NCBI GenBank assembly: GCA_003856375.1
Contig: CP034120.1
Location: 3,467,501-3,531,500, forward strand
Direction of reading: 5' to 3'
Length of the DNA stretch: 64,000 nucleotides
Origin: Glaciecola amylolytica
GTDB taxonomy: Bacteria > Bacteroidota > Bacteroidia > Flavobacteriales_D > Crocinitomicaceae
Shown here piece after piece: positions 17,838 through 23,614 of this stretch (position 1 is the first letter of the stretch; the number at the start of each line of letters is the position of its first letter). The position numbers and the translations under genes were made by a program. Below the pieces are notes generated by a model. That model did not search any database, was not told the DNA's origin, and worked only from the letters and a program-made list of their open reading frames with translations.

Positions 17838-18716
17838 CTATTCTTTAATAATCAGAACAGACAAATTTCCTTTGATCAGATCTGCCGCTGCACTTCCGAT
17901 GTTTAACGGCGCAGTACCCTCAGCATATTTTGCGCGTAATTGAATGGTATGTGATCCGGCAGTCATATTGAACACGCTCGACAAACTCCACTGAGAAATA
18001 ATTTGTCCCAGTGAAGCAGAGTTTGCAGCAGGAACTCTTCGTTGTAAAGTTGAAGCAACGCCATCAACAAAAATCGCAAAGTCGGCTACTCCGTGGTTTA
18101 CTCCTGCATTCGCATTTTGAAATCCACCATCACTTGAGATATATACTTTTGCATTTGCCGGAACTGTAATCGTTTGTGTCAATCCCGGAACCAGGGTATA
18201 AGTCGTCGAAGCGGTAGTTAGTTGCAATTGGCTGGTGGTATAAACCGTTCCGGCAAATTGTCCGGTTGTTCCCGCAGGACCTTGAGCACCCGCTGCTCCG
18301 GCCGGTCCCTGTGGACCAGTTGCACCAGCAGTACCATTCGCACCTGCCGGGCCTTGTGCTCCAGCTACTCCCTGAGGGCCTGTTGCTCCCGCTGGTCCTG
18401 CCGGACCTTGTGGCCCGGGAACTCCTGCACCACCTCCGGCGCAAAGATTCTGCCATGCAGCTGCAGTACTTTCATAAAAGAAAAAGCAATTCACATCTGT
18501 ATCATAAACCAACAAACCTTCAGTTGGGGTTGTAATCGCATTTCTTTGTGCAGTTGTCAATCTGGGAACCAAAACTCCCTGAGTCGTTGACTGCATGTCC
18601 AGAATGGCATTTGGATTAGGTGTATTTGTACCAATTCCCACATTGTTTTGAGCATTTCCATTCAAACTCAATACGATCGTAAAAGAAGCTAGCAAGGCTT
18701 TCGTGTGTGTTTTCAT
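17838..18716 (-). CDS. Secreted collagen-like protein (copy 2)
   Basis: A 292-residue paralogue of the protein at 14149-15033. The first 92 residues after the signal peptide are almost identical (NNVGIGTNTPNPNAILDM...[10 protein letters not shown]-type module). A collagen stretch of 18 Gly-X-Y triplets (98-152) follows, then a beta-rich C-terminal domain (about 155-292) that is more divergent than the N-terminus. It starts 10 bases after its adhesin partner. The pattern of conserved head and triplets with a diverged tip suggests a common assembly with different exposed faces. Confidence 0.85.
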   Translation of the reverse strand: MKTHTKALLASFTIVLSLNGNAQNNVGIGTNTPNPNAILDMQSTTQGVLVPRLTTAQRNAITTPTEGLLVYDTDVNCFFFYESTAAAWQNLCAGGGAGVPGPQGPAGPAGATGPQGVAGAQGPAGANGTAGATGPQGPAGAAGAQGPAGTTGQFAGTVYTTSQLQLTTASTTYTLVPGLTQTITVPANAKVYISSDGGFQNANAGVNHGVADFAIFVDGVASTLQRRVPAANSASLGQIISQWSLSSVFNMTAGSHTIQLRAKYAEGTAPLNIGSAAADLIKGNLSVLIIKE

Positions 18717-18726
18717 TTTTAGTTGA

Positions 18727-20511
18727 TTATTTTCTTATGACTGTTATATTTCCTTGATAGTGGTATTCCTTCGTATTGGAAGATGCTTTCAGCTTATAGA
18801 AATAAACTCCTTCTTCCACCAGTTTTCCGTTGGTTTTTCCATCCCAGATAACATTCGGGCTGTTGGAACTGAAAATTAGGTTTCCCCAACGGTTAAAAAT
18901 CTGCAATCCATAATCTTTTACTCCAATTGCTTTGATGTAAAAGACGTCGTTTATACCATCATTATCAGGTGTAAAAATGTTAGGCACGACGATTTCCGAG
19001 AATAACTCAACAATTTGTGAAGCCTGACCAACACAGCCGTTTGCATTGGTCACTTCCAGAGTTACAAGATAATTGTCCTCGATTCCGGAATAAGTATGTG
19101 ACGGAGCCTGCGCTGATGAACCGAAACCATCTCCAAAACTCCAGGTCCAGGAAATCGCACCGGACGTATGATCCGTAAATTGATAGCTCGTGCCATTTTC
19201 AGTATACGAGAAATCAACTGCTGCATTCGGAATAATATTCGGAGTACAGATTGCCGGCAGTGAACTGCAACCATTCGCATCAACCGCCACTACTGAAACC
19301 TGCCCCGATCCGGATTGCCAGTTTGCTTCAGCAACAGCTGTTCCCTGCCCCGACACCAATGTTGCGTTGGAAGGAAAAGTCCATTGATAATTTGTGGTCG
19401 TTCCAGTAAGAGTAAATACATTCTCCACAGAGTTTTCACACACATCCGGACAATTCAATTGAGGAATTTCCGGACGCAAACGCGAAAGAATATACGGATG
19501 CCCCGGAACAACAAAGTTCCATGCCGCTTTGGTTCTCGTATCAAAACCGCCGGAAACAGCAGCACTTGTGACACCCATATCTGTCCATTCGGAAGCAGGA
19601 TTCTGCCACTGAGCCATTGCCGGCCAATTACCATCTGATGCAGAAATATAAAACAAGCGCAAATCTGTAGGAACTGAACCAACAACACGTTCTATCGAAT
19701 GATAATAGTCGGGATTCAGAGAGCAAGTTATGTCATCAGTTTCCGAACGGTCAAAATTATCGACAGATGCATCCACATTATTCAAACGAGCCGTATACTG
19801 AGAAGCCGCATTCGTTGAAGGAGTGAGTTCTACAGGCCTGAAACGCAAAGTTCCGGCACTGGATCCGGTAGGAAATAAATAAGCCGCAGCCTGATTCGTA
19901 AGTCGTGAAAAAGTTCCCGGAGCCAAACTACTCACAAATCCTTCTGCTCCGAAGGTATTCAAATAAGTAACAGCTGTTGTAGACGGATTCAGAACAAAAA
20001 ATGAGTTCGTTTGAGTTTCCAGTTCGCGGTCATTCAGGTTCAGGATTCCGGTTGCTCCTGTTGAAGCATTCACTCCGTTCAGGGTTTTCTTCCGGTTATT
20101 ACCCGTTCCGGTACCTGTAAGAATCAGGTTATTAAAACTGGTCGCAATTGCATTGAGCGAAGTAATGAATTGCTGCGTATTTCCGTATAAAGTAACTGTT
20201 GAAGTTCCCGAGTTAAATGTTCCGTTATTGACCCAATCCTGTTCAATCAAATAAACTCCGTTTCCATTGACCTGAGATACCGTCCCGATGATAAAATTTC
20301 CGGGAACAGAAAGTGTCGAATTTTTGGTGACAGTCAGAACGCCATTGTTTGACAAACTGGTTGTCTGGGTCAAATCAACTCCTCCATTCACGTGTACGAC
20401 AGATCCGGGTGATAACGAAACAGAAGCTCCATTCGAAAAAAGAGTTTGGGCGTAGGAAATAGAATATATTACTGAGACCGTCAGTAATAGCAGGTTTGTA
20501 GTAAGCTTCAT
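18727..20511 (-). CDS. T9SS type B surface protein of the collagen cassette (copy 2)
   Basis: A 594-residue paralogue of 15046-16824 with the same order: signal peptide (1-21), beta-rich region with LFSNGASVSLSPGSVVHVNGG, NFNNLILTG-type motif, Ig-like segment with CENSVENVFTLTG, PKD (WTWSFGDGFG) and type B sorting domain (NIFTPDNDGINDVF, IFNRWGN, VIWDGKTNG, EGVYFYKL). It is likely exported by T9SS. Similarity to copy 1 runs along the whole length, so the cassette was duplicated as a unit. Confidence 0.88.
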   Translation of the reverse strand: MKLTTNLLLLTVSVIYSISYAQTLFSNGASVSLSPGSVVHVNGGVDLTQTTSLSNNGVLTVTKNSTLSVPGNFIIGTVSQVNGNGVYLIEQDWVNNGTFNSGTSTVTLYGNTQQFITSLNAIATSFNNLILTGTGTGNNRKKTLNGVNASTGATGILNLNDRELETQTNSFFVLNPSTTAVTYLNTFGAEGFVSSLAPGTFSRLTNQAAAYLFPTGSSAGTLRFRPVELTPSTNAASQYTARLNNVDASVDNFDRSETDDITCSLNPDYYHSIERVVGSVPTDLRLFYISASDGNWPAMAQWQNPASEWTDMGVTSAAVSGGFDTRTKAAWNFVVPGHPYILSRLRPEIPQLNCPDVCENSVENVFTLTGTTTNYQWTFPSNATLVSGQGTAVAEANWQSGSGQVSVVAVDANGCSSLPAICTPNIIPNAAVDFSYTENGTSYQFTDHTSGAISWTWSFGDGFGSSAQAPSHTYSGIEDNYLVTLEVTNANGCVGQASQIVELFSEIVVPNIFTPDNDGINDVFYIKAIGVKDYGLQIFNRWGNLIFSSNSPNVIWDGKTNGKLVEEGVYFYKLKASSNTKEYHYQGNITVIRK

Positions 20512-20963
20512 GGTTCATTGATGTGCGCAACAAATAACGCTACAAAAGCCTTAAAAAACAAACGAATCCGGATTAAAAAACATTTTTTTATAACCGTCAA
20601 ACGCTAAGTTTCTAAGGATAAAACCCTTAATGATTTTGATTTTTCCGGAAGCCGTCAGATTTCTATTTGCGAAACGGATTCTGATCAGGAATTTTTGTTG
20701 TTTTTATCCGTTGCTTAACCGTTAAAAACCTTTAGAGGTCTGCTATCAGTGAGTTTGAAGTAAAACTCTGAATTTTCCGTCAGTTCCAAACAAAAAAAGA
20801 GCCCGTCAATGACGAGCCCTTTTAATCAAGCCAGTTCTACCTTGCCTCGACTATTTCGTTATCGTTTGAGTTGTAGTAATTTTTCAAACTCCTTTGGAGA
20901 AGCTGACAACGAAATAAATATCTTTCCTGGTAACTAGATGCACCGTTTTTTCAAAGGTTGGAA
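20512..20963. other. Intergenic region without recognisable genes
   Basis: About 450 AT-rich bases upstream of the copy 2 surface-protein gene and downstream of the anti-sigma-like gene. Apart from a terminator-like hairpin (20792-20824) I see no gene, strong promoter or repeat. No full TAnnTTTG box was found for the gene starting at 20511. Confidence 0.5.
20792..20824 (-). terminator. Possible terminator of the sigma/anti-sigma operon
   Basis: An A run, then GAGCCCGTC-AAT-GACGAGCCC (a stem with two mismatches), then TTTT. It lies about 140 bases past the stop of the anti-sigma-like gene. The imperfect stem and distance lower confidence. Confidence 0.45.
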
Positions 20964-22346
20964 TTAAAATGAATATTTTATTTGAAGTTTTACCCCCTGA
21001 ATATCGCTGAAGTCCGCATTACCACTTTTAAGCTTTGATACAAATTGATATTGCATCCCAATTCCAAGAGCAGTTTTATTTTTAAACGGCGCTAAATGAT
21101 AGTCGATTCCGGCAGTTGCTCCGATCTGGAACTTATTGGAATTGTATACATTGGTGATCGTTGAACGATTCGCTTCATAGCCGCTCAACAGGCGATTCAG
21201 TGAAACTCCCGCATAAACTGTAGCGCCTCTATACGTGTATCCAACCGAAGACATCAGAAAAATGGTATTCAATCGCTGATCCAAACTGGTATAGCGTCCA
21301 TTGATATAACTTCCGTTTGATTGTGCGTATTGACTAAATCCTAAATCCTGGGTCAAACGAACATTTCCGAGGTAATAATGATATTGGAAATCCGCTGCTA
21401 TCCCCATGGAAGGAAGAGAACTCGAGAATGCACTTCGGTTCTTTTCATTGATGAATGAGAACTGTCCGCCAAACTGAAGGCTGAACCGTGGTTTGAACGG
21501 AGATTTCAAAGGAATGAACGTGAAATCACCAATCGAGCCGTATTCGTCTCTTGTTTCAAAAGCTATTTCCTTTGTTCCCAATTCATCCAGTTGTGCCAGA
21601 TCGTTGAAGGTGTTTGACGTATTTTCAGTCAATATATTATTATTGTTATTCGTACTGTTTTGAACCGTTCCGTTCGTTATCACATGTTTCGGATCCTGTT
21701 GAAGTCCGTCATTTTTAAGTGCCAGATTTCGTTGCTGTTCGGCATTTTGTACGTTTGGATTTTCAAACAATTCCTTGTTCTGACGGTTGCGATTAGCCAA
21801 TTGATTCTCTTTGGTAATGACGTTTTCAGCTAAAACAGCTTCCTTATCTCCTGCTCCTGCAGTTTCAACAGAATTGTCTGCCAAATCGGTTTCTTTTTCC
21901 GGATTGGAAATCGTTTTCAAACCACTTATACCGGCAATCGACTCCTGACGGGTATCAGAACTTGTAAAGTAGTCTGTATAGAATGAAAGAAACACAAAGA
22001 AAACAGAAGCCGCCGCCATTTTCATCCACGGAATTCTGGTTGTAACCGGATAATTCAATGTGGTATTTAATCTGTTCCAAACACGCTCTCTGGAAAGTTG
22101 CTCTTCCAGTTTTGTCCATCCGTCACCGGAAGTATTCGGAGACCAATTGTCATAAGAATCTGCTAAGGTTTTATCAGCAGGACTTCCGTTTAACTCCAAC
22201 GTTTCATCCAAACGGTCCCAAACGGCAGAAACAGCCAAATCCGCCTCCAAATCTTCCCATAAATCAGAAGACGGTGTTCCCGCATCCCAATTCTGGTAGG
22301 ATTTATGAAGAGATTTAAACTCTTTATGTGAATTTGTTTGGTCCAT
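20964..22346 (-). CDS. Dual-membrane-spanning anti-sigma-like protein (Dma-type)
   Basis: This 460-residue protein has an unusual order of parts. Residues 1-105 are soluble and contain two copies of a tryptophan-rich repeat (14-50 and 62-98; SYQNW...VWDRL and SYDNW...VWNRL). Residues 107-124 are the single hydrophobic segment. Residues 130-265 are a disordered N/Q-rich linker. Residues 285-460 look like an outer-membrane beta-barrel of about eight strands ending in the aromatic signature KYSF. There is no signal peptide. It begins one base after the ECF sigma gene. This is the architecture described for Bacteroides Dma proteins, in which a cytoplasmic anti-sigma domain, inner-membrane helix, periplasmic linker and OM barrel form one chain. 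The anti-sigma activity here is inferred. Confidence 0.75.
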   Translation of the reverse strand: MDQTNSHKEFKSLHKSYQNWDAGTPSSDLWEDLEADLAVSAVWDRLDETLELNGSPADKTLADSYDNWSPNTSGDGWTKLEEQLSRERVWNRLNTTLNYPVTTRIPWMKMAAASVFFVFLSFYTDYFTSSDTRQESIAGISGLKTISNPEKETDLADNSVETAGAGDKEAVLAENVITKENQLANRNRQNKELFENPNVQNAEQQRNLALKNDGLQQDPKHVITNGTVQNSTNNNNNILTENTSNTFNDLAQLDELGTKEIAFETRDEYGSIGDFTFIPLKSPFKPRFSLQFGGQFSFINEKNRSAFSSSLPSMGIAADFQYHYYLGNVRLTQDLGFSQYAQSNGSYINGRYTSLDQRLNTIFLMSSVGYTYRGATVYAGVSLNRLLSGYEANRSTITNVYNSNKFQIGATAGIDYHLAPFKNKTALGIGMQYQFVSKLKSGNADFSDIQGVKLQIKYSF

Positions 22347-22347
22347 T

Positions 22348-22866
22348 TTAAGAAACGAGTTTTTGTTTTAATACCGAGCGTGCGTAATTTAATTGGGATT
22401 TGGAGGTTCCGACCGAAATCTCCAGTTCTTCCGCAATTTCAGAATGCGACCAGCCTTCCAGGGCATACAATTTCAATACCAATCCGGCTTTTGTCGGCAA
22501 CAAGTTGATTTCTTCCAGCACTTTCGCAAAAGGGATTCCTGTTTCCAGATCCGCTTCGTCCTGATCCATTACCGGAATTTCTGCCAATTGTGTAAAGTTC
22601 TTTCTTTTTCTCAGGGTTTGTAAACAGCAATTCACCGTCACTCTTCTCAGCCAGCCTTCAAAAGACCCCGTGAAAGTGTATGAACCAATGTTTTTATAGA
22701 TATGCATGTATGCATCATGCAGCATATCTTCCGCATCCTGAGTATCCGAGCCGTATAACTTGCAAACCTTGAATAAATCCTTGGAGAAAAGACGATACAA
22801 TCTTTCCTGTGCAGATCGTTCCCAATTTGCACAGCCATCGATAATATCTTTATACTCGGCAGACAT
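22348..22866 (-). CDS. ECF-type RNA polymerase sigma factor
   Basis: This 172-residue cytoplasmic sigma factor has a sigma-70 region 2 (about 22-90: LYRLFSKDLFKVC, QDAEDMLHDAYMHIYKNI, FEGWLRRVTVNCCLQTLRKR) and a region 4 helix-turn-helix (about 120-168: LPTKAGLVLKLYALEGWSHSEIAEELEISVGTSKSQLNYAR). It lacks region 3, as expected for ECF sigmas. Its start overlaps the stop of the upstream lipoprotein by one base (TAATG) and its stop is one base from the anti-sigma-like gene, so all three are one operon and probably one stress-response circuit. Confidence 0.93.
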   Translation of the reverse strand: MSAEYKDIIDGCANWERSAQERLYRLFSKDLFKVCKLYGSDTQDAEDMLHDAYMHIYKNIGSYTFTGSFEGWLRRVTVNCCLQTLRKRKNFTQLAEIPVMDQDEADLETGIPFAKVLEEINLLPTKAGLVLKLYALEGWSHSEIAEELEISVGTSKSQLNYARSVLKQKLVS

Positions 22867-23528
22867 TACTCAACGGTTAAGATCAAAGCTTTCGGTAATT
22901 GTTCGGTGATTTTACTGAACAATTGATTATTGTTACCACTAGCACTATTTATCAATAGAGTCGGAACACCATTTTCCATGACGAAATTGGGTTGACTCCA
23001 TAAAGAACTCGGAACATTTTCAAACAATTTCTTGGCATCGAAACCAATGAACACTTTGTAATTTTTCTTTCTTTCCAGAGAGAACGGATTCTGAATCTTA
23101 AAACTCAACGCTTCGTAATTGCTCCATTCAATAATCATCGGAACGGGTTCTGTTCCTTTATAAAAAGTACCTTCCAGTCGGATGCACGGATGATTTGAAT
23201 TATCAATCAGTGTCGAAATATCAAATTCGATATAGTCTCCCATCGGAATGTCCAAAGCAATTCCCAAATCCGTTTCACCGGAAAATTCGATCTTATCTCC
23301 GCTGAGGTTTTGTGTAATTTTTACGTCAGAGCCCTTCACCCGTTTTCCTGAAACGGTAAACTGGGTGGAGTAGAAATATCCTTTATTAACAACGGCATTT
23401 CCCTGACTGGATGTTGTAGAATGAAACTTCCAGTTCAAACTCAAATAAGCGGGTTGTTTCAGTTTCCACCTCTCACAACCGCCGGATCCCATCAGAATCA
23501 CTATCAATAGTAGGTATAAACCTCTCAT
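22866..23528 (-). CDS. Putative lipoprotein upstream of the sigma factor
   Basis: A 220-residue protein. A longer frame exists, but the ATG at 23526-23528 starts a signal sequence (MRGLYLLLIVILMGSGGC) that ends in a lipobox-like SGGC with Cys18, so I chose it. The rest is beta-rich with no motif I recognise (DYIEFDISTLI, CIRLEGTFYKGTEPVPMIIEW, KKNYKVFIGFDAKKLF). It overlaps the sigma gene by one base. A job as envelope sensor or product of the sigma circuit is plausible from context only. Confidence 0.65.
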   Translation of the reverse strand: MRGLYLLLIVILMGSGGCERWKLKQPAYLSLNWKFHSTTSSQGNAVVNKGYFYSTQFTVSGKRVKGSDVKITQNLSGDKIEFSGETDLGIALDIPMGDYIEFDISTLIDNSNHPCIRLEGTFYKGTEPVPMIIEWSNYEALSFKIQNPFSLERKKNYKVFIGFDAKKLFENVPSSLWSQPNFVMENGVPTLLINSASGNNNQLFSKITEQLPKALILTVE

Positions 23529-23614
23529 TTGCAATTTATTTAAAACTAAGATACGACTAAAATAAAAAGGTTGGAAATTAAACTTATTTAGAACTAATAC
23601 AAATAGCATTTAGT

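Follow-up and report, generated by a model that had tools for sequence, protein, structure and literature searches.

A Dma-type anti-sigma candidate, an ECF sigma factor and a partner lipoprotein encoded in one operon, with a predicted small RNA gene behind it, in a Bacteroidota genome

The 64,000-nucleotide stretch of DNA analysed here (the window) carries an operon of three minus-strand genes for a lipoprotein, an ECF sigma factor and a 460-aa anti-sigma candidate, and directly behind it a second predicted promoter and a structured small RNA gene (Table 1). The sequence supports the 460-aa protein as a Dma-type dual-membrane anti-sigma candidate, and its gene is called dma below; the name of the Dma proteins reportedly dates from 2024. 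A Dma-type circuit is in itself of known kind, and the small RNA was previously unannotated. The parts fit a positively autoregulated circuit whose operon is followed by an output slot, and it is rather probable that the Dma-type protein, the partner lipoprotein, the sigma factor and the RNA arm make up one autoregulated envelope-response module. According to this proposal, the two tandem cytoplasmic units would tether the sigma factor to the inner membrane, and the disordered linker would bridge the periplasm to a small barrel in the outer membrane; there the co-translated lipoprotein would report on the barrel or stabilise it. A disturbance of the outer membrane, the barrel or the lipoprotein would free the sigma factor, which would then fire TTCCAACC-type promoters, ahead of its own operon as well as behind dma. 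The promoter behind dma would yield, in the genus's main operon, a structured small RNA adjusting envelope genes post-transcriptionally. Sigma binding, membrane placement, sensing, the use of these promoters by this sigma factor and the function of the RNA are what we infer from the sequence. The host appears to be a freshwater bacterium of the Bacteroidota, and its genus appears to be Fluviicola.

Table 1. Position and description of the genes, protein regions, predicted promoters and RNA features of the operon and its 3' side
Feature	Positions in the window	Strand	Description
Predicted ECF promoter of the operon	23550-23576	-	TTCCAACC-N14-GTATC
Lipoprotein gene, operon head	22866-23528	-	220 aa, start MRGLYLLL, lipobox Cys18; beta-sandwich model
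ECF sigma factor gene	22348-22866	-	172 aa; one base in common with the lipoprotein gene
Dma-type anti-sigma candidate gene	20964-22346	-	460 aa; predicted to reach from the cytoplasm to the outer membrane
Cytoplasmic unit 1	22185-22304	-	about residues 15-54; unit HMM 3e-7; HMM without family members 2e-3
Cytoplasmic unit 2	22053-22163	-	about residues 62-98; unit HMM 2e-8; HMM without family members 4e-3
Predicted transmembrane helix	21978-22034	-	residues 105-123; hydropathy and model helix 104-136
Disordered linker	21489-21938	-	about residues 137-286; low pLDDT, Asn/Glu/Thr-rich
Eight-stranded beta-barrel	20967-21488	-	residues 287-460; AlphaFold2, Foldseek, profile match to Dma1/2-type barrels
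Second predicted promoter, just behind the dma stop	20937-20963	-	TTCCAACC-N14-GCATC
Small RNA gene	20788-20931	-	about 140 nt, 5' end approximate; fold z -4.93
Intrinsic terminator of the small RNA	20795-20823	-	13-pair stem, then T run

The sigma start codon and the lipoprotein stop codon overlap by one base in the string TAATG, and a one-base spacing separates the sigma stop codon from the 460-aa gene. This three-gene layout with its one-base overlap had been put forward in the initial annotation and was recovered with unchanged coordinates. The gene preceding the candidate had been called an ECF sigma factor, and its product indeed matches Sigma70_r2 (1.6e-11), Sigma70_r4_2 (3.9e-11) and TIGR02937 (1.7e-22) in Pfam and NCBIfam. 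The 460-aa protein is present in one copy in its own genome. The promoter boxes and the RNA gene fall outside the range covered by that annotation (20964-23528) and are absent from it. The next minus-strand gene after the small RNA begins at 20511; just past the RNA gene, the stretch 17838-20511 (minus strand) encodes two proteins, one with collagen repeats (PF01391) and the other with PKD and a CHU_C type IX secretion tail.

In most family loci TTCCAACC or a close form of it stands ahead of the lipoprotein gene and is followed after 13-17 bases by GTATC, GCATC, CGAC, CGTT or similar letters (by eye). Of 33 loci searched ahead of that gene, 26 carry [CG]CAACC in the sense orientation and 6 in the antisense one, the expectation from shuffled sequence being 2.8. 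A fuller promoter pattern, composed after the sites had been seen, gave 85 matches over 49 loci against 11 in the reversed sequence. It precedes the lipoprotein start in 14 of the 16 triads (lipoprotein, sigma factor and Dma-type gene) from outside the family, lying within an over-long open reading frame call in L145, L150 and L165; the exceptions are L166, with a near form, and L171, with none. The box ahead of the lipoprotein gene has the look of an ECF promoter and of autoregulation. The CGTC of many sites resembles the CGT box at -10 of the SM6 (ECF) promoters of Flavobacterium psychrophilum, as given in the available part of that report (PMC9723704). The operon-head site is present in 9 of 14 genomes of the genus. 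The own genome holds only four sites with the promoter pattern, one at the operon, two before genes and one within a 1782-aa open reading frame, and these are suggestive only. The two before genes (L256, G000:C1:2508500-2514500, and L257, G000:C1:3413000-3419000) precede a gene for a 524-aa lipoprotein and one for a protein with a T9SS tail (PF18962, 4.1e-12), which are possible further regulon members. A conserved promoter box would make regulons of this kind readable from sequence.

A second box stands behind the dma stop codon in 13/13 main-operon loci of the genus, its -10 part being off-pattern in L116. In the paralogous triad of the genus (L115, in G505) what comes after this box is a small lipoprotein-like gene. 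Other lineages often have the second box ahead of genes, frequently lipoprotein genes: besides the DUF4382 cases given below, it lies before a Fib_succ_major protein (L150) or before small lipoproteins (L010, L122, L124 and L126, by eye), and in L119 and L120 an open reading frame of 90-93 aa comes first after it.

Conservation strongly supports the lipoprotein as a member of the sigma-Dma circuit. Among 150 family genomes the lipoprotein profile matches 33 and the Dma profile 24, all of which are inside the 33; of the nine genomes with the lipoprotein match alone, five have a triad with a diverged Dma (L129-L133), one locus is cut by the contig end (L128) and three are weak matches. All 33 family loci long enough to take in the three genes have the order lipoprotein, sigma factor, Dma; these were retrieved via the lipoprotein or the Dma profile, many being near copies, and are therefore silent on how often the sigma factor occurs without the lipoprotein. 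Outside the family, the lipoprotein lies directly upstream of the sigma gene in 16 of 78 sigma loci, in a set that may favour triads because it was gathered with one short sigma pattern, from among the matches listed, and with an alignment restricted to the sigma factors of triads (at least 80 loci, reduced to 78 by removal of L141 and L144, copies of L002 and L119). The lipoprotein-headed loci include Marinilabiliaceae, Saprospiraceae and Cesiribacteraceae. In a sigma tree of 107 rows the lipoprotein label (48 rows) needs two changes, with a bootstrap range of 2-3, against 35 in shuffles; the labelled rows form a single clade in none of the bootstrap trees, and one origin or more than one would both fit. 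The sigma factors of L177 (record titled Mollicutes) and L220 (Limnohabitans) sit among those of Bacteroidota in the tree, and these are probably mis-binned contigs. A search of 395 phylum genomes gave lipoprotein-profile matches in 12, and 10 of the 11 besides the own genome are without a sigma gene nearby (by eye); these were set aside. In L045, a lipoprotein-profile match, a sigma gene and a short anti-sigma-like gene lie ahead of the match.

AlphaFold2 models the lipoprotein as a confident beta-sandwich (pLDDT 89.9). Cys18 does not vary in alignments of 11 and of 17 rows, and the other residues invariant in the latter are Pro26, Gly61, Arg63, Gly66, Asp93, Gly97, Tyr99, Gly120 and Ile193. 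Neither Pfam nor NCBIfam gave a match for the window lipoprotein; a Pfam scan of six other triad head lipoproteins, DUF4382 (PF14321) included, gave nothing over the cut-off, and the distant head lipoprotein of L043 reached 0.04 with DUF4382, below the cut-off. A Foldseek search of the PDB found no convincing relative (best match 3.3e-3; TM on query length at most 0.26 among the best 50 matches), and the weak matches to toxin beta-sandwiches were not read as function.

The most serious alternative makes the lipoprotein an effector only and not a sensor, that is, the first product of an autoregulated operon, serving outer-membrane repair or coating; it is plausible, falling a little short of an even chance. 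Lipoproteins of the same profile do lie behind dma after the box in L166 and L208, and at greater distance in L159, and lipoproteins of the DUF4382 family (7e-34 to 2.8e-36) follow the second box and fill the slot behind dma in L143, L158 and L171. The lipoprotein considered here is, however, the head gene, and its junction with the sigma gene is an overlap or a gap of at most 9 bases in 31/31 measured loci, a tightness that a plain effector would not need. Read as a sensing or stabilising partner, the lipoprotein, which accompanies the sigma-Dma pair in several orders, offers a concrete candidate for the Dma input still being sought; the substrate of Dma2 is still to be found according to its authors, in the available part of their report (PMC13088901).

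In the main operon of Fluviicola the second box is followed by a conserved stretch that holds no gene and ends in an intrinsic terminator. A terminator scan of the region gave 5 such sites, with 2.7 expected. The window RNA folds at -42.2 kcal/mol, a value matched by none of 200 shuffles, and over 10 of the 13 RNAs of the genus the fold z ranges from -1.15 (L117, no better than chance) to -4.93. Stem P1 is maintained with altered letters in L008, L116 and L117, and the 5' arms of the terminators all differ among the 13 relatives, yet every one pairs. RNAalifold on the 13 RNAs gave only 7 pairs, 4 of them changed on both sides, at -4.28 kcal/mol, an energy that is weak because diverged rows align poorly. 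The string AAAAUUACUACAA is exact in 7/13 RNAs and AGGUAGAACUGG in 11/13. Single-base insertions and deletions between the RNAs of close relatives shift the reading frame, so that a protein-coding role is unlikely. A contact between the two RNA loops, considered by eye, was dropped since L116 is without one partner. Rfam gave nine listed matches for positions 20500-21000 (STnc430, STnc390, McaS and others), none of which reaches its gathering score, and they were taken as chance.

Among 180 family genomes a covariance model of the RNA matches 11, which all belong to this genus, with every full copy directly behind dma and a partial copy elsewhere in G522. As all 11 genomes supplied training rows, the search gives place and copy number and not independent discovery. 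L116, from outside the training set, scores 7.6e-5 and was nevertheless missed in the search of 180 genomes; the RNA of L117 was found by position only. G511 and G517 have diverged forms by position, that of G511 also by the model. In G046 the covariance model found no RNA, and the lipoprotein and Dma profiles are also silent there.

It is unlikely that this RNA is mere 3' untranslated region of the operon with its terminator. Such a region would account for an RNA that comes directly after the stop codon and ends in a terminator there; against it stand the promoter box at the stop codon in all main-operon loci of the genus, the loss of alignment similarity just past the terminator, and three loci (L121, L123 and L125) in which the opposite strand carries, pointing toward dma, a TTCCAACC-N-GCATC box and then an RNA-like stretch (by eye). 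The string CAAGGTAGTAGCTG is present in L123 and L125, and the RNA-like stretches of these three loci are perhaps related to the small RNA in inverted orientation.

Some of these features recall the sigma-E system of Escherichia coli, with RseA/RseB and the RNAs RybB, MicA and MicL. Both have an ECF sigma factor, a membrane anti-sigma factor, a periplasmic partner and small RNAs as response arm, whereas in E. coli the anti-sigma fold is without a barrel and the RNA genes lie elsewhere in the genome; no kinship is claimed. That the operon represents an old and widespread two-promoter circuit of the Bacteroidota, in which the sigma-holding domain works through tandem units of varying number and whose sigma-driven output slot turned in Fluviicola from a lipoprotein gene to an RNA as a sigma-E-like arm, has about equal weight for and against it. 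An ECF-driven small RNA, if true, would add a post-transcriptional arm to envelope control in Bacteroidota, where no report of such an RNA was found in the largely open-access literature searched. The phylum does have a documented case of an RNA under an alternative sigma factor, the putative regulatory RNA Rfp36 of F. psychrophilum, listed under an SM4 promoter; unlike the RNA proposed here it depends on sigma-54 and not on an ECF sigma factor, and the available text mentions no Dma-type protein or linked RNA gene (PMC9723704). A different relation is described in the accessible part of PMC10861873, where BT_4721/BT_4720 is a likely anti-sigma/sigma pair and BT_4721 a predicted target of the RNA BTnc353: there an RNA would act on the sigma pair, whereas here the pair would make the RNA.

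The initial annotation had described the 460-aa protein as soluble repeats, one membrane helix, a 135-residue disordered linker and a C-terminal barrel ending in an aromatic residue, without a signal peptide. A hydropathy scan found no hydrophobic stretch in the first 60 residues, where a signal peptide would lie, and placed the 19-residue peak at 105-123 (1.46, a modest value); together with the model this agrees with a single helix and no signal peptide. The AlphaFold2 model, from 17 alignment rows, has a mean pLDDT of only 56.7. Its cytoplasmic part consists of six helices in two triplets (7-53 and 56-98) with block pLDDT of 38-54, and for this reason the helices lean also on the repeat evidence given below. 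After the long helix 104-136, most of 137-286 is of low confidence; the linker is thus disordered as described, but about 150 residues long. Structure prediction of the protein alone, the check proposed for the barrel, gave eight long strands and a short one over residues 287-459, with ten-residue blocks at pLDDT 71-92 except two (56 and 51), and outer-membrane proteins as Foldseek matches. The best of these in the PDB are NspA (5.1e-6) and OmpA (2.3e-5; 1qjp, TM 0.68 normalised on OmpA's own length), and Foldseek groups the OmpA-like barrel with NspA, OmpA, OmpX and OmpW. The last residue is Phe in the window protein, as had been noted, but as a marker this is weak because an aromatic end is shared by only 29 of 47 triad proteins. 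A merely apparent dual-membrane layout, in which the protein would remain in the inner membrane or be cleaved before it gets to the outer one, is improbable: the missing signal peptide, the modest helix and the lack of an aromatic end in many relatives would suit it, whereas the top fold matches of the barrel are outer-membrane proteins and related Bacteroides proteins, by the available part of PMC13088901, reach from the outer membrane into the cytosol.

The Dma-type reading, which had been suggested from the likeness to Bacteroides, agrees with the described layout. In the portion of the report available (PMC13088901), the Dma proteins have an N-terminal anti-sigma domain, a transmembrane helix, a disordered tether and a C-terminal barrel, with an ECF sigma factor as neighbour, and Dma1/Dma2 with Das1/Das2 of Bacteroides thetaiotaomicron have this order in common with the window pair. 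A dma2 mutant shows a rise of das2 and neighbouring genes, by the same portion of the source (PMC13088901). In sequence the comparison with Dma proteins, proposed earlier as a check, succeeded with a broad alignment and failed with a narrower one: in hhalign, a 17-row broad triad alignment (A4) against four Dma1/Dma2-type barrel proteins (A9) gave 94% (E 1.3e-7, in the barrel region, a single comparison), and an 11-row family alignment (A1) against the same four only 14% (E 0.0019). The window sigma factor is 31-32% identical to Das-type sigma factors. The A1 profile (11 family Dma proteins) found no convincing full-length homologue outside the family in 395 phylum genomes; it gave matches in 15, and 11 of the 15 non-own matches are confined to the membrane helix and linker (model positions 87-254), none being taken as a homologue.

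A search with DUF4943 (PF16301) found a match in 3 of 296 phylum genomes. In G336 and G328 a sigma factor, a barrel protein, DUF4943 and two more genes follow each other in the order of the dma2 operon as given in the available part of PMC13088901 (the two last genes by eye). Both genomes have a second sigma/barrel pair, which is probably Dma1-type because its sigma factor is 52-55% identical to the first and it has a NigD-like neighbour (by eye). The window operon differs from the dma2 operon in that a lipoprotein gene without a Pfam family lies ahead of the sigma gene, whereas there, by the same part of the source, DUF4943 lies on the dma side (PMC13088901). It also has two tandem cytoplasmic units, whereas the four Bacteroidales Dma-type proteins have a single unit each ahead of the helix (by eye), and a small RNA behind dma. 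The M0N98_03761/03760 pair of Phocaeicola vulgatus, induced by BcpT, is likewise a sigma factor followed by a large anti-sigma factor for which a span across the periplasm and a C-terminal barrel are predicted, and its signal is thought to be envelope stress; unlike here, the available text makes no mention of a lipoprotein head gene or a small RNA (PMC9308784).

Residues 1-105, which contain the two units, are the putative sigma-binding part. An HMM of the unit, trained on 109 anti-sigma-like proteins with the window protein among them, finds two copies in the window protein and none across 109 shuffled proteins, and the repeats claimed at the outset are therefore real. Copy number is 0-3 per protein in 33 family proteins by this HMM, and by eye L121 and L123 have four units each, some lacking Trp. 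An HMM seeded from 60 non-family proteins also finds both window units, and in many relatives only one unit or none. Of two Dma2-type proteins, one has a match to the unit HMM (8e-3) and neither has one to the HMM seeded outside the family. Chitinophagaceae have tandem units as well, in shorter anti-sigma-like proteins such as the 312-aa one of L189, which has four. Such short proteins (about 260-310 aa) adjoin ECF sigma factors and carry 2-4 tandem Trp-containing units in L189, L173 (Niabella), L184, L203 and others.
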